Below, piece by piece: positions 28,764-37,475 of a stretch of DNA of 64,000 nt. The stretch is from an uncultured Aliiroseovarius sp. Its GTDB lineage: Bacteria; Pseudomonadota; Alphaproteobacteria; Rhodobacterales; Rhodobacteraceae. Under the pieces are notes generated by a model. The model made no database searches. It worked only from the letters and a program-made list of their open reading frames with translations, and had not been told where the DNA came from. Position 1 is the stretch's first letter, and every line of letters starts with the position of its first letter. The stretch covers positions 248,001 to 312,000 of the forward strand of contig NZ_CANLNB010000003.1 in NCBI RefSeq assembly GCF_947492455.1, read 5' to 3'. Made by a program: the position numbers and the translations under genes.

Positions 28764-30734
28764 ATGTCGTCGCAAGCTACGGCTGATAAGACCTATGCTC
28801 CGTCTGCGGAGTTTGTCTCGAATGCACATATCGATGCAGCTAAATACCAAGAGATGTATGCCGCATCCGTAAATGACCCTGATGCATTCTGGGCCGAGCA
28901 AATGACGCGTCTGACCTGGACCAAGACGCCGACCAAAATCAAAAACACCACTTTTGCGCACCCCGACGTGTCGATCAAATGGTTTGAAGATGGCGAACTG
29001 AACGTCTCGGCCAACTGTATCGACCGCCACCTCGAGACCCGTGGTGACCAGGTCGCGATCATCTGGGAATCAGACGATCCCAACCTTGATAAAAAGATCA
29101 CGTATAACGAGCTGCACGAGAACGTCTCGAAGCTGGCCAACGTGATGAAGGGCATGGGCGTCGGCAAAGGCGACCGCGTCATTCTGTATCTTCCGATGAT
29201 CCCTGAAGCATCGTACGCGATGCTGGCCTGTGCCCGCATCGGCGCGATCCACTCGATCGTCTTCGCCGGCTTCTCGCCGGAAGCACTGGCTGCCCGTGTT
29301 GAAGGCTGTGGTGCCTCGCTGGTGATCACCGCTGACGAAGCCCCCCGTGGTGGCCGCAACACGCCGCTGAAAACCAACGTGGATGCCGCTTTGGCGCACG
29401 GCGATCTGGGGTCGACCCCGGTTCTGGTGGTTGAGCGTACCGGTGGCGATGTGCCGATGGTAGACGGCCGCGACCATTCGTATTCGGCGCTGATGGCAGA
29501 CGCTTCGGCTGACTGCCCGCCCGAAACCATGAACGCAGAAGATCCGCTGTTCATCCTTTACACCTCGGGTTCGACCGGCCAGCCGAAAGGCGTTCAGCAC
29601 TGTACCGGTGGGTACCTGCTGTGGGCTGCAATGACCCACGAATACGTTTTCGACTATCATGAAGGCGACATCTACTGGTGTACCGCTGACGTGGGCTGGG
29701 TCACCGGCCACAGCTACATCGTCTATGGCCCGCTGGCCAACGGCGCGACCACACTGATGTTCGAAGGTGTTCCGACCTATCCGGATGCTGGCCGTTTCTG
29801 GGCCGTGTGTGAGAAGCACAAGGTGAACCAGTTCTACACCGCTCCGACCGCAATCCGTGCCCTGATGGCACGTGGCGAAGAGTTCGTGACCAAGTACGAT
29901 CTGAGCGACCTGAAGGTGCTGGGCACCGTGGGCGAGCCGATCAACCCTGAAGCCTGGAACTGGTACAACGACGTTGTCGGCAAAGGAAATTGCCCGATCG
30001 TTGACACCTGGTGGCAGACGGAAACCGGTGGTCACCTGCTGACCCCGCTGCCCGGCGCGACCGCAACCAAGCCCGGCTCGGCCACCACGCCTTTCTTCGG
30101 CGTCCAGCCTGTGATCCTCGAGCCGACCACCGGCGAAGAGATCAACGAGACCGAAGCCGAAGGCGTACTGTGCATGAAAGACAGCTGGCCCGGCCAGATG
30201 CGCACCGTCTATGGCGACCATGACCGCTTCGTGGCCACCTACTTTGCTGATTACAAAGGCTACTACTTCACCGGTGACGGCTGCCGCCGTGACGCGGATG
30301 GCTACTACTGGATCACCGGCCGTGTGGACGACGTGATCAACGTTTCGGGTCACCGCATGGGCACCGCCGAAGTGGAAAGCGCTCTGGTGGCACATGCCAA
30401 GGTTTCCGAAGCCGCTGTTGTTGGCTTCCCGCACGACATCAAGGGGCAGGGCATCTACTGCTACGTCACCCTGATGGACGGCGAAGAGTATACCGACGAT
30501 CTGAAGGTCGAACTGCGCAACTGGGTCCGTCAGGAAATCGGCCCGATCGCCAGCCCCGACCACATCCAGTGGGCCCCGGGCCTGCCGAAGACCCGTTCGG
30601 GCAAGATCATGCGCCGTATCCTGCGCAAGATCGCCGAGGACGATTTCGGTTCGCTGGGTGACACCTCAACCCTGGCCGATCCGTCGGTTGTGGACGACCT
30701 GATCGACAACCGCATGAACAAGGCGGGTGCATAA
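28764..30734 (+). CDS. acsA: Acetyl-CoA synthetase
   Basis: This AMP-forming enzyme makes acetyl-CoA from acetate, ATP and CoA, releasing AMP and pyrophosphate. It has 656 residues, normal length. Seen: the phosphate loop [58 protein letters not shown], and the C-terminal catalytic Lys in TRSGKIMRR, the usual site of inhibitory acetylation. A GGGAGGAT ribosome site precedes the ATG. It begins a run continuing into adk, a DUF4212/symporter pair and regulatory-looking genes, so the locus serves acetate uptake and activation. Confidence 0.96.
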
Positions 30735-31417
30735 TGGACGCAGCGACAACGACCGCCGCCCCTGTTCTGATCCTTCTCGGCCCTCCGGGCGCCGGGAAGG
30801 GCACTCAGGCCCGAATGCTGGAAGACAAGTTTGGACTTGTTCAGCTTTCGACAGGAGATCTTTTGCGCGCAGCAGTCGCAGCAGGGACCGAAGCGGGCCT
30901 TGCTGCAAAAGCCGTTATGGAAGCCGGTGAACTGGTCTCGGATGAGATCGTGATCAACATCCTGCGTGACCGTCTGGCAGATGCCGACTGCGCCAAGGGT
31001 GTGATCCTTGACGGTTTCCCCCGCACCACCGTTCAGGCCGAGGCGCTGGACGCCCTGCTTGCGGAAAGCGGACAAAAAATCAACGCAGCCATCAGCCTTG
31101 AAGTCGATGACGCTGCAATGGTGACCCGCATTTCGGGCCGTTACACCTGTGGCGGTTGCGGTGAAGGGTATCACGACGAGTTTAAGCAGCCCGCGAAAGA
31201 CGGCGTCTGCGACAAATGCGGCGGCACGGACATGAAACGCCGGGCCGACGATAACGCCGAAACCGTGGGAAGCCGCCTTGTGGCCTACCACGCACAAACG
31301 GCACCGCTCATTGCCTACTACGGGGGCAAGGGCAGCTTGCAGAAGGTCGATGCCATGAAGGCTATCGATACCATTGCAGGTGACCTTAATGAGATCGTTC
31401 AGGAAGCGGTCGCATAA
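30734..31417 (+). CDS. adk: Adenylate kinase, Zn-lid type, in the acs operon
   Basis: This 227-residue kinase interconverts AMP + ATP and 2 ADP. Seen: the P-loop GPPGAGKGT (16-24), DGFPRT, and a long LID with four Cys (139, 142, 159, 162; CGGCG and CDKCGG), which fits a Zn-bearing lid. Its ATG shares one base with the acs stop codon. In alphaproteobacteria the housekeeping adk usually lies in the ribosomal-protein spc operon. This is therefore probably an additional copy dedicated to removing the AMP made by Acs. That it is a second copy is inferred. Confidence 0.94.
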   Translation: MDAATTTAAPVLILLGPPGAGKGTQARMLEDKFGLVQLSTGDLLRAAVAAGTEAGLAAKAVMEAGELVSDEIVINILRDRLADADCAKGVILDGFPRTTVQAEALDALLAESGQKINAAISLEVDDAAMVTRISGRYTCGGCGEGYHDEFKQPAKDGVCDKCGGTDMKRRADDNAETVGSRLVAYHAQTAPLIAYYGGKGSLQKVDAMKAIDTIAGDLNEIVQEAVA

Positions 31418-31480
31418 GAAAGGGAAGGGCGGGGGCGCGTGTGTGACCCCGTTGGAGGAACTTCAGAGGGAGGAGGCTTC

Positions 31481-31741
31481 ATGGCCGATAACTCACAAAA
31501 CGACGCATATTGGTCCGCCAATTTGCGCATCATCAAGATCAGCCTAGTAATTTGGGCGATCGTTTCATTTGGATTCGGCATTCTGCTGCGCCCGATGCTT
31601 TCCGGCATCGCCGTCGGCGGAACCGATCTTGGTTTCTGGTTCGCACAGCAAGGTTCGATCATCGTCTTCTTGATTTTGATCTTCAACTACGCAATGCGCA
31701 TGAACAAACTCGACCGTGACCACGGCGTAGACGAAGAATAA
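31481..31741 (+). CDS. DUF4212 small subunit of a sodium:solute symporter
   Basis: This 86-residue protein with two TM segments (about residues 18-40 and 52-75) begins at 31481 after GGGAGGAGGC. A cytosolic start (SQNDAYWSANLRIIK) followed by TMs is typical of DUF4212. It lies 15 nt before the large symporter gene, the usual pairing. It is probably needed for assembly or activity of the transporter. Confidence 0.9.
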   Translation: MADNSQNDAYWSANLRIIKISLVIWAIVSFGFGILLRPMLSGIAVGGTDLGFWFAQQGSIIVFLILIFNYAMRMNKLDRDHGVDEE

Positions 31742-31756
31742 AGGGGCCAGAAACAG

Positions 31757-33544
31757 ATGGATCAGTTTACGATCAACCTGCTGTTTGTGGGTGCGAGCTT
31801 CGCACTTTACATCGGCATCGCAATCTGGGCCCGTGCGGGCTCGACTTCGGAATTCTACGCCGCTGGGCGTGGTGTTCACCCGGTCACCAACGGTATGGCG
31901 ACGGCTGCTGACTGGATGTCGGCTGCATCGTTCATTTCGATGGCTGGCCTTATCGCCTTTACCGGTTACGACAACTCGTCGTTCCTGATGGGCTGGACCG
32001 GCGGCTACGTGCTGCTGGCACTGCTGCTTGCGCCTTACCTGCGTAAGTTCGGCAAGTTCACCGTGTCGGAATTCATCGGTGACCGCTTCTACTCGCAGAC
32101 TGCCCGTATCGTGGCTGTTGTCTGCTTGATTGTGGCCTCGACCACCTACGTTATCGGTCAGATGACCGGCGTTGGTGTTGCGTTTGGTCGCTTCCTGGAA
32201 GTGGACAACACAACCGGTCTGTTCATCGGTGCTGCTGTTGTATTCGCCTACGCCGTTTTCGGCGGCATGAAGGGTGTTACCTACACGCAGGTTGCTCAGT
32301 ACTGCGTACTGATCACTGCTTACACCATTCCGGCAATCTTCATCTCGCTGCAGCTGACTGGCAACCCGATCCCGGCCCTGGGCCTGTTCGGCGAGCACGC
32401 AGCTTCGGGCGAGCCTCTGCTGGCGAAACTGGACGCAATCGTGACCGAACTTGGCTTCAACGAGTACACTGCTCACCACGCCGACACGTTCAACATGGTT
32501 CTGTTCACCCTGTCGCTGATGATCGGTACTGCTGGTCTGCCGCACGTAATCATGCGCTTCTTCACCGTGCCTAAAGTATCGGACGCCCGTTGGTCGGCCG
32601 GTTGGACCCTGGTGTTCATCGCTCTGCTGTACCTGACTGCTCCGGCTGTTGGTGCAATGGCTCGCCTGAACATCTCGGAAATGATGTGGCCGAATGGTGG
32701 CGTCAATGGTGAAGCTGTGACTGTTCAGCAGATCGAGAACGAAGATCGTTACGACTGGATGAAGACGTGGCAGAAAACTGGTCTTCTGAACTGGGAAGAC
32801 AAGAACGGCGACGGCAAGATCCAGTACTACAACGACAAGTCCGCAGCTATGCAAGAAATGGCCGCTGAAAAAGGCTGGACCGGTAACGAGCTGACCAAGT
32901 TCAACCGCGACATCCTGGTTCTGGCCAACCCCGAAATCGCCAACCTGCCGGGTTGGGTAATCGGTCTGGTTGCTGCTGGTGGTCTGGCTGCTGCGCTTTC
33001 GACGGCTGCTGGTCTGCTTCTGGCGATCTCGTCGGCTGTATCGCACGACCTTATCAAAGGTGCGATCAACCCGCAGATCTCGGAAAAAGGCGAACTGATG
33101 TCGGCACGTGTGGCGATGGCAGTAGCAATTGTTGTAGCTACCTATCTGGGTCTCAACCCTCCGGGCTTCGCAGCACAAACCGTGGCACTTGCCTTCGGTC
33201 TGGCCGCCGCGTCGATCTTCCCGGCTCTGATGATGGGTATCTTCTCGACCAAAGTGAACAACACTGGCGCCGTTGCTGGCATGATCGCGGGTATCACCGT
33301 TACCCTGATCTACATCTTCCTGCACAAAGGCTGGTTCTTCATCCCGGGCACCAACAGCTTCTCGGACGCTGATCCGCTTCTGGGCACCGTTAAGTCGACC
33401 TCGTTCGGCGCAATTGGTGCGGCGATCAACTTCGCTGTTGCTTACACCGTGTCGGGCATGACCAAGCCTCTGCCGGCTGAGATCAAAGCTCTGGTTGAAT
33501 CGGTTCGCGTACCGCGCGGCGCCGGTGCAGCTCAGAACAAATAA
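31757..33544 (+). CDS. Sodium:solute symporter, acetate-type (ActP-related, DUF4212 partner)
   Basis: This 595-residue, 13-TM SSS-family permease has FYAAGRGVHPVTNGMATAADWMSAASFI, the family's substrate/Na+ region. It differs from E. coli ActP in a hydrophilic insert of about 90 residues (about 310-400) between TMs. The insert contains an EF-hand-like loop (DKNGDGKIQYYN, residues 348-359). The acs/adk context strongly suggests acetate or a related short carboxylate. The last gene of its transcript may be this one, as a good hairpin with TTTT follows. Confidence 0.9.
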   Translation: MDQFTINLLFVGASFALYIGIAIWARAGSTSEFYAAGRGVHPVTNGMATAADWMSAASFISMAGLIAFTGYDNSSFLMGWTGGYVLLALLLAPYLRKFGKFTVSEFIGDRFYSQTARIVAVVCLIVASTTYVIGQMTGVGVAFGRFLEVDNTTGLFIGAAVVFAYAVFGGMKGVTYTQVAQYCVLITAYTIPAIFISLQLTGNPIPALGLFGEHAASGEPLLAKLDAIVTELGFNEYTAHHADTFNMVLFTLSLMIGTAGLPHVIMRFFTVPKVSDARWSAGWTLVFIALLYLTAPAVGAMARLNISEMMWPNGGVNGEAVTVQQIENEDRYDWMKTWQKTGLLNWEDKNGDGKIQYYNDKSAAMQEMAAEKGWTGNELTKFNRDILVLANPEIANLPGWVIGLVAAGGLAAALSTAAGLLLAISSAVSHDLIKGAINPQISEKGELMSARVAMAVAIVVATYLGLNPPGFAAQTVALAFGLAAASIFPALMMGIFSTKVNNTGAVAGMIAGITVTLIYIFLHKGWFFIPGTNSFSDADPLLGTVKSTSFGAIGAAINFAVAYTVSGMTKPLPAEIKALVESVRVPRGAGAAQNK

Positions 33545-33587: not shown

Positions 33588-33646
33588 AAATTTGTCCCGT
33601 CCGGTGTTCTATCGGGCGGGATTAACTTTTGAAGAAGGCAGCGAAT

Positions 33647-35482
33647 ATGCCCCTGAGCCAAGATCAGATTTTCCGATTTCTGAAATCCGTTCACCCCTAT
33701 GACGCCCTAAACGCTGATGTGGTCGAAAGACTGGTGCCGACGCTTCAAGCGCGCGCCGTACCCGCAGGCGAAAGCGTCTATGATTTCGGAGATGACCTGC
33801 CCGGCGTGTTCATCATCCACGAGGGCGAGGTCGAGGTCAGTGACGAGAACGGCTCGGTCGTGTCGCATCTTGGGCTGCGCAACTCTTTTGGCGAACGCGG
33901 GCTCTTGCGGGAAGGCAAGGCTGTGACCTCGGCGCAAGCCGTCACGGACACCACGCTGCTGATCCTGCCCGTGGACCAATTCCACGCGCTGATCGCCGCA
34001 GAAGACAAGGTTAAACGGTTCTTCGATCGCTCGCGCGCGGATCGGAACAACAAGCAGGACCAGCAGGACCTCGCGACCACGCAGGTGGATACGCTGATGG
34101 CTGCCAACCCGGTGACCTGCACCCCTGCGACCTCGGTGCAAGACGCCGCGATCCTGATGCGCGACCGTCGCGTGTCGTCGCTGTGTATCACCGAAGGCGA
34201 TGCCCTGACCGGGATCCTGACCACCCGCGACATGTCTGGCAAAGTGCTGGCCGCAGCCCTGCCCGTAGACACACCCGTGTCGCAGATCATGACACCCAAC
34301 CCCATCACGCTTGCCCCGTCCGCCATTGGTTCGGACGTGCTGCACATCATGATGGAGCGCCGCATCGGCCATGTGCCAATCGTCGAAGGTGGCAAGCTGG
34401 TTGGCATCGTCAGCCAGACAGACCTGACCCGCTTCCAAGCCGTAAGCTCGGCCGAGCTGGTGCGCGAGATCGCACAGGCCAACACGCCGGAGGAAATGCG
34501 CGAGGTGACAGAACGCATCCCGCAGCTTCTGGTCCAACTGGTCGCTGGGGGGCGCCCGCATCAGGTGGTCACCCGCCTGATCACAGACATCGCCGACACC
34601 TGCACCCGCCGCCTGCTGGCTTTGGGCGAGGCCAAGCTGGGTCCGGCGCCGGTGCCCTATCTGTGGGCCGCCTGTGGATCGCAGGGCCGCCAGGAACAGA
34701 CCGGCGTTTCCGATCAAGATAACTGCATGATTTTGCACGACGATGTGACGGACGCAGATCGCGACGGATACTTTACCGAGCTGGCCAAGTTCGTCTGTGA
34801 CGGGCTGGATGTTTGCGGCTATTTCTATTGCCCCGGCGATATGATGGCGACCAACCCGCGCTGGTGTCAGCCGCTGAAGGTTTGGAAAGACTATTTCGAC
34901 GGCTGGATCGCCAAGCCAAGCCCGGAAGCGCAGATGCTGGCCTCGGTCATGTTCGATCTGCGGGCGATCTCGGGGGATGAAAGCCTGTTTGAAGGGCTTC
35001 AGAAAGACACGCTGAAAATGGCAGCGAATAACTCGATCTTCGTGGCGCATATGGTGTCGAACTCGTTGAAGCACACACCGCCGCTGGGCCTTCTGCGCGG
35101 CTTCGCCACGATCCGTTCGGGCGAGCATAAGAACCAGCTGGATATGAAGCATAACGGCGTTGTGCCGATCGTTGATCTGGGCCGCGTCTATGCCCTGCAG
35201 GGCGAACTGACCGAGGCCAACACACGCGCGCGTCTGGAAGCTGCCATTCACGCCGGTGGCCTCAGCCAATCGGGCGGGCAGGATCTGCTGGACGCCTATG
35301 ACCTGATTGCCGACACGCGGCTGGAACATCAGGTTGCCGAAGTCAAAGCCGGTGGCAAGCCGGACAATTATCTGTCGCCCTCGGACCTGTCCGAGTTTGA
35401 ACGCAGCCACCTGCGCGATGCCTTTGTTGTGGTGAAATCCATGCAAAGCTCGATCGGGCATGGGCGCGGGATGCTGGGCTAA
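33647..35482 (+). CDS. cNMP-binding, CBS-pair, DUF294 nucleotidyltransferase-like protein
   Basis: The ATG at 33647 fits GAAGAAGG better than the TTG six codons upstream, and gives 611 residues. Domains in order: a cyclic-nucleotide-binding beta-roll (about 10-120, GVFIIHEGEVEVSDENG, SFGERGLLREG), two CBS motifs (about 145-265, VDTLMAANPVTCTP and VSQIMTPNPIT), and a GlnD-like nucleotidyltransferase core with GSQGRQE at 344-350 and SDQD at 355-358. These are the metal and nucleotide residues of an active fold. A helical C-terminal DUF294_C region follows. CBS pairs often bind AMP or ATP, which fits next to acs and adk. The target of any nucleotidylation is unknown. Confidence 0.88.
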   Translation: MPLSQDQIFRFLKSVHPYDALNADVVERLVPTLQARAVPAGESVYDFGDDLPGVFIIHEGEVEVSDENGSVVSHLGLRNSFGERGLLREGKAVTSAQAVTDTTLLILPVDQFHALIAAEDKVKRFFDRSRADRNNKQDQQDLATTQVDTLMAANPVTCTPATSVQDAAILMRDRRVSSLCITEGDALTGILTTRDMSGKVLAAALPVDTPVSQIMTPNPITLAPSAIGSDVLHIMMERRIGHVPIVEGGKLVGIVSQTDLTRFQAVSSAELVREIAQANTPEEMREVTERIPQLLVQLVAGGRPHQVVTRLITDIADTCTRRLLALGEAKLGPAPVPYLWAACGSQGRQEQTGVSDQDNCMILHDDVTDADRDGYFTELAKFVCDGLDVCGYFYCPGDMMATNPRWCQPLKVWKDYFDGWIAKPSPEAQMLASVMFDLRAISGDESLFEGLQKDTLKMAANNSIFVAHMVSNSLKHTPPLGLLRGFATIRSGEHKNQLDMKHNGVVPIVDLGRVYALQGELTEANTRARLEAAIHAGGLSQSGGQDLLDAYDLIADTRLEHQVAEVKAGGKPDNYLSPSDLSEFERSHLRDAFVVVKSMQSSIGHGRGMLG

Positions 35483-35532: not shown

Positions 35533-36057
35533 ATGTTCTTTGAGATGGTCGCCACACTGGTGTCAGGTTTTGCAGGCGCAGGTGTGGTGCTGCTTTTGAA
35601 CAAGATCAGCGGCGGTCGGCTGCCGAAATGGGCTATGCCCGTCGGCGCCGGTCTTGCGATGATCATCACCACGATCGCCAACGAATACGCGTGGTATGAC
35701 CGCACGCAAGAGACACTGCCCGAGGGCATGGAAGTCATTCAAACGGTCGAAAACAAAGCGATTTATCGCCCGTGGACCTATGTAAAACCCTTCACCGAAC
35801 GGTTTATCGCTCTGGATGAACCATCCCTGCGGACCCACGACGCACGCCCAGAGATGCGCATGGTGGACGTCTATTTCTTTGGCCGTTGGTCCGCGCCGGA
35901 AAAGATGGTCATGCTGGCTGATTGCGATGCGGGACGACGTGCCCCCTTGATCGATGGCGTGTCCTTTGACGCTGACGGAGAGATCACTGGCGTCGATTGG
36001 TTCGCCCCGGGCGAGGGGGATCCGCTGGTCACGGCAATCTGTAAACTGGAGGTATAG
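35533..36057 (+). CDS. Small membrane-anchored conserved protein, unknown function
   Basis: This 174-residue protein has two N-terminal hydrophobic segments (about 5-22 and 32-52) and a soluble C-terminal part (MRMVDVYFFGRWSAPEKMVMLADCDAGRRAPLIDGVSF). A TAGGGAGGAAACC ribosome site precedes the start. I recognise no family. It sits between the nucleotidyltransferase-like and the membrane exonuclease genes, with 50 nt before it and 2 nt after it, so it is probably part of the same system. Confidence 0.75.
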   Translation: MFFEMVATLVSGFAGAGVVLLLNKISGGRLPKWAMPVGAGLAMIITTIANEYAWYDRTQETLPEGMEVIQTVENKAIYRPWTYVKPFTERFIALDEPSLRTHDARPEMRMVDVYFFGRWSAPEKMVMLADCDAGRRAPLIDGVSFDADGEITGVDWFAPGEGDPLVTAICKLEV

Positions 36058-36059
36058 TC

Positions 36060-37475
36060 ATGCAAATCCTGACGAAGCTGTCGTTGCGCTTTCGGATCTT
36101 CCTGTTCTTCGCCTTCTTGGCCGTCGCAGCGGTGCTGTTGGTGATCGGTGCATTGGTGGTCGGCGCAGGGCGCGCAACACCTGACGATGTAGCGTCTGGT
36201 TTCGTCTTTGCTGGGGTTCTGTCCAGTTTTGGTATTTTGGCGCTGGTCGCCGGGGTGTGGTTCCTCTTTGATGAAAACGTTGCCCGGCCCATCGAGCGTC
36301 TGGCATCGGGCTTGCGCTCCAAGGCCCACGCGGGTGCTGGCGAAGTGGACATGCATAGCGCGCGTTTTCTGGGCGATCTGGCCCCCGCGGCCGAGGCTGT
36401 GTCCGAGCAGCTGATGAAGTCGACGATGGATCAGGCCAGCCTTGTCGCGGCCGAAACCCGGCGCCTGTCTGACGACAAAGCCCGCCTGACGGCGCTTCTG
36501 TCCGAAATCCCCGTCGCCATGGTGCTGATCAACCCGGCACACCAGATCGTGCTCTATGACAAACAGGCGGCTGCCGTGCTGTCTCAGGTCAGTCCGGCGC
36601 GTCTGAATGCCTCGATTTTTGACTACTTCCAGAAAACGCCTTTCATGGCGGCCTATCACAAGATGATTTCGACGGGGTTGGAGCAAAGCTTTTCCGACCT
36701 GTCCGCTGCAAATGGACTAGAGTTCGACGCCCGTCTGAAGCCCCTTGCGCCGGGCGAAGGCTATTTGCTGATGATCGATGACGCCCATGCCGTATTGGCG
36801 CCGGACGAAGGGCGCCCTGTGGTGTTCGACTTCGATTTGATGGAGGGGCAGGCCACAGACGATCTGATGGAAATGCAGCTGCGCGATCTGACCTACGTGG
36901 TGTTCGACACGGAAACCACCGGGCTGTTGCCGCACAAGGACGAGATCGTACAAATCGGCGCCGTGCGCGTGGTCAACGAAAAGATCGTTCCCGGCGAGGT
37001 GGTCGACCAGCTTGTCGATCCCGAAATGCCGATCCCGCCGGCCTCGACCAAGGTGCACCATGTGTCTGACATGATGGTGGCTGGGAAGCCGACCATTCGC
37101 GAGGCGGGGAAAAGCTTCCATGACTTCGCGCGCGGGGCTGTTCTTGTGGCCCACAACGCGCCTTTCGACATGGCCTTCCTGCGCCGTCACGCCGAGGATT
37201 GTGGGGTTGAATGGACCCATCCCATTCTGGACACGGTGCTGCTGTCGGCTGTCCTGTATGGCACGACCGAAGTGCACACGCTAGACGCGCTCTGCGACCG
37301 TCTGGGCGTGGTCATCCCGCCCGAGCTGCGCCACACCGCCTTGGGCGACGCGCAAGCCACGGCCGAGGTTCTGTGCAAGATGCTCGCCATGCTGCACTCC
37401 AAAGGGATCGAGACGCTGGGCGGCGCGATCTCCGCGGCGAAAAAGCATAAGCGGCTGTTGGAAGACTTGAACTAG
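36060..37475 (+). CDS. Membrane-bound sensor-like 3'-5' exonuclease (2TM-HAMP-PAS-DEDDh)
   Basis: This 471-residue protein has two TMs (about 13-35 and 47-69), a HAMP-like linker (about 70-125, VARPIERLASGL) and a PAS-like domain (about 145-250, VAMVLINPAHQIVLYDKQA). A complete DEDDh exonuclease of the DnaQ type follows (about 276-450): FDTETTG with Asp283/Glu285, VAHNAPFDMAFL, and HTALGDAQAT with the catalytic His and Asp. The front half is built like a histidine kinase sensor but the output is a nuclease. It starts 2 nt after the preceding gene. Possible substrates are RNA, DNA or linear dinucleotides such as those made from cyclic dinucleotides. This is unproven. Confidence 0.85.
   Translation: MQILTKLSLRFRIFLFFAFLAVAAVLLVIGALVVGAGRATPDDVASGFVFAGVLSSFGILALVAGVWFLFDENVARPIERLASGLRSKAHAGAGEVDMHSARFLGDLAPAAEAVSEQLMKSTMDQASLVAAETRRLSDDKARLTALLSEIPVAMVLINPAHQIVLYDKQAAAVLSQVSPARLNASIFDYFQKTPFMAAYHKMISTGLEQSFSDLSAANGLEFDARLKPLAPGEGYLLMIDDAHAVLAPDEGRPVVFDFDLMEGQATDDLMEMQLRDLTYVVFDTETTGLLPHKDEIVQIGAVRVVNEKIVPGEVVDQLVDPEMPIPPASTKVHHVSDMMVAGKPTIREAGKSFHDFARGAVLVAHNAPFDMAFLRRHAEDCGVEWTHPILDTVLLSAVLYGTTEVHTLDALCDRLGVVIPPELRHTALGDAQATAEVLCKMLAMLHSKGIETLGGAISAAKKHKRLLEDLN

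Follow-up and report, generated by a model that had tools for sequence, protein, structure and literature searches.

The last gene of an acetate operon in an uncultured Aliiroseovarius sp. encodes a membrane-bound 3'-5' exonuclease of the DEDDh type, and this exonuclease is a regular partner of CBS/DUF294 nucleotidyltransferases. Both the anatomy of the protein (two transmembrane (TM) helices, a PAS-like fold and a full active site) and the partnership are well supported. The gene occupies positions 36060..37475 (+ strand) of the window, the 64,000-nt stretch of contig NZ_CANLNB010000003.1 analyzed here, and encodes 471 aa from an ATG start located 2 bases past the end of the preceding gene. 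A tentative proposal, of somewhat less than even probability, is that this membrane-anchored, HAMP/PAS-gated exonuclease, together with a dedicated CBS-DUF294 partner, trims or opposes the product of that partner to tune acetate uptake.

The exonuclease domain was delimited by Pfam, the structural model, Foldseek and the catalytic residues, and spans residues 278–447 (36891..37400, + strand). A match to RNase_T at residues 280–438 (Pfam, E 3.8e-35) places the protein in the DEDDh exonuclease family, and the catalytic residues D283, E285, D370, H425 and D430 are all present, the five being invariant in 33 of 33 aligned sequences (alignment A1). When the AlphaFold model of the target (mean pLDDT 80.4) was used as a Foldseek query, the best 50 PDB matches listed were DEDDh-type exonucleases, RNase T and ExoX included. 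At the sequence level, the closest solved relatives of the domain are PolC, DnaQ, DinG and ExoX. The closest relatives of the target are from Aliiroseovarius species, with up to 97% identity, and NCBI-annotated plasmid records label homologues as "3'-5' exonuclease", "exonuclease domain-containing protein" or "hypothetical protein". A replicative DnaQ identity was rejected, with TIGR01406 scoring 106.9 bits against a curated cut-off of 222.7; a separate DnaQ-like frame of 247 aa is found in the same genome (G000:C1:385363). A defence system was rejected as well, the PADLOC matches being to generic DEDDh/exonuclease profiles: the PDC-S48 profile matched the exonuclease region only, and a weak Pycsar-cyclase match fell on the cNMP end of the DUF294 protein.

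The N-terminal half has the layout of a membrane receptor. TM1 (residues 9–38) and TM2 (residues 44 to approximately 71) were assigned to 36084..36272 (+ strand) from the model and from the hydropathy of the identical L001 copy; in the model they correspond to helices 9–38 and 44–91, followed by a long helix at residues 107–148, around which the linker is of lower confidence, with blocks of 56–75 pLDDT. Since almost nothing lies between TM1 and TM2, the target has no extracytoplasmic sensor domain. A HAMP domain is plausible in the segment after TM2 (around residues 72–125, with approximate limits; 36273..36434, + strand). Pfam gave no HAMP match in the scanned target and relatives, including 25 of the 28 families listed for A1. 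A 15-row profile of TM2 plus the linker (A4) matched methyl-accepting chemotaxis protein I (8c5v, residues 195–270) with an E-value of 5.7e-8, partly through TM2; without TM2, the match was to 9wxr, at an E-value of only 0.048. Further along the chain, a PAS domain is likely at approximately residues 149–245 (36504..36794, + strand), as judged from the model and from homology to longer relatives in which PAS_4 is detected. Within this region, modelled with confidence over most of its length, residues 153–241 follow the PAS-like order of strand-strand-helix-helix-three strands. No Pfam PAS match was obtained for the target at E ≤ 1, and among 10 other short-form proteins a single one was found (L045, E 0.16). 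Foldseek could show no PAS fold match, as exonucleases take up all 50 rows listed. Identity between the long forms and the N-terminal region of the target (residues 3–257) reaches 45% (E 3.3e-54). PAS_4 was matched at E ≤ 1 in 17 of the 33 A1 sequences (best 5.1e-7), and 17 of the 33 are long forms, from which these matches probably come.

Altogether, the original prediction of two TM helices and an intact DnaQ-type exonuclease is borne out by the model, the RNase_T match and the five catalytic residues, and support extends to its view that the output of this membrane receptor-type layout is a nuclease, with HAMP plausible and PAS likely. Structure prediction, which it had named as a check, returned the PAS-like fold; as for its HAMP-like linker, the profile match to 8c5v speaks in favor, and with no Pfam HAMP match the linker falls short of proof.

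The operon runs acs-adk-DUF4212-SSS symporter-DUF294-hypothetical-exonuclease, with all genes on the + strand. The first gene, acs (28764..30734, 656 aa), encodes acetate–CoA ligase (TIGR02188, 1010 bits against a cut-off of 725), and is followed by adenylate kinase (30734..31417, 227 aa; ADK, E 1.3e-54), whose role may be to recycle AMP generated in the Acs reaction; a second adk-like frame of 209 aa is present in the same genome (G000:C3:3962). An adk gene is likewise present in most named loci with sufficient flanking sequence, and is found in only three of 77 DUF294 rows across Pseudomonadota. Next come the small symporter subunit DUF4212 (31439..31741; TIGR03647, E 6.8e-32), which in many relatives is an 86-aa ORF with an equivalent start approximately 42 nt later, and an SSS sodium/solute symporter of the VC_2705 family (31757..33544, 595 aa; TIGR03648, 815.5 bits against a cut-off of 320.75), the sole SSF gene found in this genome. 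The 617-aa nucleotidyltransferase protein (33629..35482), likewise the sole DUF294 place found in the genome, combines cNMP_binding (Pfam, E 6.6e-15), CBS (3.9e-24), DUF294 (5.3e-46) and DUF294_C (1.1e-45) domains. Between it and the exonuclease lies a conserved hypothetical protein of 174 aa (35533..36057) that had no Pfam or NCBIfam match and carries one N-terminal hydrophobic stretch of TM strength (hydropathy peak of 1.89 at residues 4–23). Its family also occurs 3' of the SSS symporter at loci where the exonuclease is soluble or non-adjacent (L099, L105, L113, L115 and L117), and the 174-aa protein may therefore be a symporter accessory protein.

Gene order is the same in those named Rhodobacterales-type loci whose flanks are long enough, apart from a receiver gene added in the loci of the long forms. 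The flanking metabolic genes vary: acs and adk are missing in some loci (Roseibium, L044–L046), no acs lies beside the operon in Ruegeria sp. TM1040, and no adk is found at the operon in Paracoccus denitrificans. The acs and acetate-type symporter setting described in the original prediction is real and conserved among the loci of relatives, and the neighborhoods surveyed were not random, with links to the symporter, acs and DUF294 recurring.

The link to DUF294 was assessed in a sample picked without regard to exonucleases, comprising all DUF294 places that reach E ≤ 1.5e-27 across 150 Pseudomonadota genomes, the target's own genome left out (77 genes in 59 genomes). A DEDDh exonuclease was encoded on the same strand within 600 bp of 63 of the 77 genes, one of the 63 being fused, and within 1 kb of 65, one on the opposite strand. 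The chance expectation is approximately 0.003 per gene, based on 73 RNase_T matches in about 64.4 Mb from 15 of the sampled genomes. At least one pair within 1 kb was present in 56 of the 59 genomes, and nine of the 12 DUF294 genes with no exonuclease within 1 kb belong to genomes with a pair elsewhere. Viewed from the other side, DUF294 was found in the fetched locus of 47 of 49 membrane exonucleases from the target's family, and in two genomes the exonuclease, CBS and DUF294 domains form a single chain (L020 and L030/L146). Of 123 DUF294 ORFs, 112 retain a GSx..DxD-type motif. Within 3 kb, 42 of the 77 DUF294 genes have an SSS symporter and the other 35 have none, and acs is in the locus of 22. 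Among the 63 adjacent exonucleases, 38 are shorter than 300 aa, two have 384–419 aa and no TM helix, and 23 are longer; with 40 that look soluble, the pairing evidently does not require membrane sensing. Besides the target's own genome, a strong DUF294 gene was found in 59 of the 150 sampled genomes and any PF03445 match in 121, the weak matches lying in long, GlnD/GlnE-sized frames.

We infer PAS gating, receiver docking, a write-erase relationship and the nature of the substrate as follows. The DUF294 protein would add nucleotides to a substrate, either a protein (the symporter or Acs, for instance) or the 3' end of an RNA, and the exonuclease would remove or trim them, providing a reversible write-erase switch on acetate uptake; the write half, i.e., the DUF294 activity, is itself a prediction. 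Through the CBS and cNMP domains of the DUF294 protein, the switch could track adenylate or cNMP levels, and in the target lineage the cytoplasmic PAS domain alone would control the nuclease. A 3'-5' exonuclease would fit a 3'-ended nucleotide chain on a protein, as made by MntA, which places three 3'-5'-linked AMPs on Tyr104 of HepT and for which the authors' model invokes unidentified PDEs for reversal (PMC7641770, excerpt). In addition, DUF294_C has been grouped with GlnD/GlnE-like protein modifiers (PMC3710099, excerpt). In the open-licence PMC literature, no assay of family members was found and no substrate of DUF294 nucleotidyltransferases was described.

The substrate could instead be RNA throughout. 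In this alternative, the exonuclease is a membrane-tethered regulatory RNase whose PAS/HAMP part gates 3'-5' trimming of operon mRNA 3' ends, tRNA or small RNAs, and DUF294 extends the same RNAs. Polymerase-beta-type nucleotidyltransferases also include RNA-modifying enzymes, and the presence of RNase T and ExoX among the best 50 fold matches listed favors this reading. So does the assignment of DUF294 to the polymerase-beta-type nucleotidyltransferases (excerpt of PMC3710099). Nonetheless, a regulatory RNase appears rather unlikely, as the nearest sequence relatives of the exonuclease, PolC and DnaQ, are DNA-type domains, DUF294_C stands with protein modifiers, and the Pfam listing for the operon proteins holds no RNA-binding domain.

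The DEDDh family counts Orn and NrnC among its members, and membrane receptors with PAS/HAMP domains frequently have cyclic-dinucleotide signals as their target. Both points would suit an acetate-operon phosphodiesterase that cleaves linear dinucleotide second messengers (pGpG, pApA); a linear-dinucleotide signal was part of the original prediction. This idea found no support and is very improbable. The closest relatives are those named above (PolC, DnaQ, DinG and ExoX), nanoRNase C was reached only at E 0.89 over 42 residues and a diDNase ancestor at 4e-4 over 42 residues, and no Orn was listed for the target at E ≤ 1; a close relation to Orn or NrnC was thus not found. Furthermore, a Pfam search of seven operon proteins detected neither GGDEF nor EAL domains.

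The receptor part of the write-erase proposal gains in definition from longer relatives. Many relatives of the target have approximately 700 aa, with some 200 aa inserted between the PAS and exonuclease domains, at a junction that in the target lies around residues 242–250 (36783..36809, + strand; placed by alignment and the long-form model) and in the long relatives holds a degenerate histidine-kinase module. A profile of this module (A3) matched kinases in the PDB (9m08, 1.1e-9; ZraS, 1.5e-8; DivL, 4q20, 1.2e-6). With the long-form model, Foldseek matched WalK (9a5d, E 2.4e-15), as well as exonucleases; the TM-score of the WalK match was only 0.17–0.19 and its rmsd large, which presumably reflects a different placement of the domains. 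Homology to DHp and CA domains is therefore present in the long relatives by profile and model matches, and the target has neither domain, as seen in the L001 copy and the alignment. At the position of the phospho-accepting histidine, the 78 module rows carry Asp (38), Glu (32) or another residue (8), and never His, which indicates that the long-form module is a pseudokinase.

A gap of approximately 400 bp upstream of the long-form genes holds a single-domain receiver, matched by PF00072 with E-values of 3.3e-30 and 7.8e-27 in the two tested; in P. denitrificans PD1222 it is PDEN_RS22690, annotated as "response regulator". To judge from the conserved residues, the receiver should be phosphorylatable, its phospho-Asp and Lys being kept in 73 of 73 sequences. 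The long form with receiver of P. denitrificans PD1222 (L154, PDEN_RS22665-22695) and the short form without receiver of Ruegeria sp. TM1040 (L155, TM1040_RS03800-03820), which belongs to a related operon, are each encoded on a large plasmid or megaplasmid. Both are tractable laboratory strains and offer natural test cases for the two forms.

The module and the receiver occur together almost without exception. The count covers 123 loci (from the range L031–L207) encoding membrane exonucleases, and excludes exonucleases that score below 150 bits, are shorter than 405 aa, are fused or have less than 450 bp upstream. By HMM, 73 loci have both, 47 neither, three the module only and none the receiver only. 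Agreement thus reaches 120 of 123 loci, or 119 if L202 is counted as module-bearing, and the 47 loci lacking both gave no receiver match anywhere in the fetched stretches. In the target's own family sample (n = 50, from 50 fetched of 86 matching genomes in the homologue search), 22 have both, 26 neither and two the module only. The three exceptions with a module and no receiver (L141, L196 and L204) have DHp hairpins of 42–49 residues, against 58–75 in the 73, and L199 keeps a CA-like remnant with the hairpin gone and has no receiver; these shortened hairpins suggest that the receiver docks on the hairpin. L141, L196 and L204 are also possible transitional forms, as is L202. This fourth exception counts against docking on the hairpin: L202 (702 aa), placed among the 47 for a score below the module cut-off, shows a weak but full-looking module at 18.7 bits in a relaxed search, and in its fetched 5.1 kb has no receiver and no DUF294, with a hairpin that does not look short. 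The 123 rows are related, and the sampled sets may share organisms. A test of joint loss by independent changes found only two supported pairs, and the sign test was not significant; the association therefore rests on counts of related sequences and on the shortened hairpins of the three exceptions.

The distribution of the module also bears on the origin of the target. In a tree of exonuclease domains, a clade of mostly Rhodobacterales (32 rows, SH-aLRT 99) mixes module-bearing and module-free proteins, and most remaining module-bearing rows fall into a second clade (34 rows, SH-aLRT 91). The tree has no outgroup, a root that is not fixed and many weak branches; it leaves out 23 loci (near-copies and broken or partial frames), and L156 is called module-bearing by length alone. 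As module-bearing rows lie both inside the clade of the target and in the second clade of this unrooted tree, the simplest and most likely reading is that the target line lost both module and receiver. No clear receiver orthologue was found in the genome of the target, where the best receiver match is a 162-aa frame elsewhere with only 37% identity. The target would then be a streamlined descendant of a longer protein with an acidic-residue pseudokinase between PAS and exonuclease, on which, in the long relatives, the single-domain receiver would dock.

The same loss could be read as decay. The protein would then be a plain cleaner of DNA or RNA 3' ends, and its membrane/PAS part a mere anchor or a sensor decaying after the kinase module was lost. 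The absence of the kinase module and receiver from the target locus accords with such a view, as does a PAS signal below Pfam detection in 10 of 11 short forms scanned; moreover, a relative that has lost exonuclease catalytic residues (L198) indicates that decay does occur in the exonuclease family. This explanation is nevertheless distinctly unlikely, because the N-terminal region has stayed collinear in approximately 45 of the 86 matching genera, most of the PAS-like region is modelled confidently, and the five catalytic residues do not vary in the 33 sequences of A1. L198 itself (434 aa, genome G485), from the target's family, is module-free, has lost several catalytic residues and shows no DUF294 in the fetched locus, and could be a pseudo-exonuclease.

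The DUF294 pairing and the long relatives with pseudokinase and receiver go beyond what the original prediction had seen. DUF294 nucleotidyltransferases are widespread in Pseudomonadota, and with an exonuclease partner this orphan family becomes a two-enzyme circuit that can be tested; in one branch, the partner became the output of a receptor that includes a dead kinase and has a receiver alongside. The broadest claim would be a new signaling output, in which HAMP-PAS receptors, with a DivL-like Asp/Glu pseudokinase and a dedicated docking receiver in the long form, control an exonuclease that erases (oligo)nucleotides written by DUF294 on the acetate uptake or activation machinery. It is unlikely in this full form, and if true would mean that nucleotidylation is undone by a nuclease instead of a removing domain of the GlnD/GlnE type. 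In the open-licence PMC literature, no paper was found that treats either the membrane sensor-exonuclease or its pseudokinase-bearing form, or that brings together DUF294, exonuclease and acetate.

Several known systems share parts of this architecture. The PolC exonuclease domain (2p1j), E. coli Pol III epsilon (1j53/2ido) and ExoX (4fzx) have the fold and catalytic residues in common with the target, which differs from DEDDh proofreaders in its membrane HAMP-PAS-like front end and its acetate operon setting. The poly-AMPylation system MntA-HepT resembles the proposal by analogy only, through a nucleotidyltransferase-built chain with a free 3' end on a protein; in contrast to it, the families listed at E ≤ 1 for the seven operon proteins include neither HEPN nor MNT, the DUF294/DUF294_C pair itself excepted. 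In Caulobacter, DivL/DivK combines a PAS-DHp-CA-like module lacking the phospho-His with a single-domain receiver, as also seen in the long relatives, and a DivK~P-DivL complex is cited in PMC4853435 (excerpt). DivL has Tyr at the His position in the profile alignment, whereas the long relatives have mostly Asp or Glu and a C-terminal nuclease, and the target itself has no kinase module. PMC1183210 (excerpt) makes no mention of a nuclease output.

Further parallels are found in Pseudomonas. As the excerpted text of PMC5715377 reports, the acetate regulon of CrbS/R in P. fluorescens includes Pflu5625, the DUF294 homologue, and a Pflu5625 mutant has no phenotype. For P. aeruginosa, an excerpt of PMC9765439 reports PA3232-PA3235 proteins up approximately 16-fold on propionate by proteomics, PA3233-PA3235 transcripts down 2-fold after propionate addition by transcriptomics, and normal growth of a PA3234 symporter mutant on propionate. 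The results for the Pflu5625 and PA3234 mutants and the fall in transcripts on propionate count against the write-erase explanation, as do the DUF294 genes that lack a nearby exonuclease (12 of 77) or symporter (35 of 77), the soluble look of 40 of the 63 adjacent exonucleases, the missing Pfam PAS match in the target and the lack of acs beside the TM1040 operon. CrbS/R controls the genes in P. fluorescens, whereas the only SSF gene in the target's genome is the symporter itself, and no SSF-fused hybrid kinase such as CrbS was thus found there. The operon described here shares with other Pseudomonadota, of which PA3232-PA3235 (with PA3232 presumably being the nuclease) and Pflu5625 are examples, the pairing of DUF294 and exonuclease genes, in many cases close to an SSS symporter. 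A difference from many of these pairs is the membrane location: 40 of the 63 adjacent exonucleases in the Pseudomonadota sample look soluble, and that of the target is a membrane protein.
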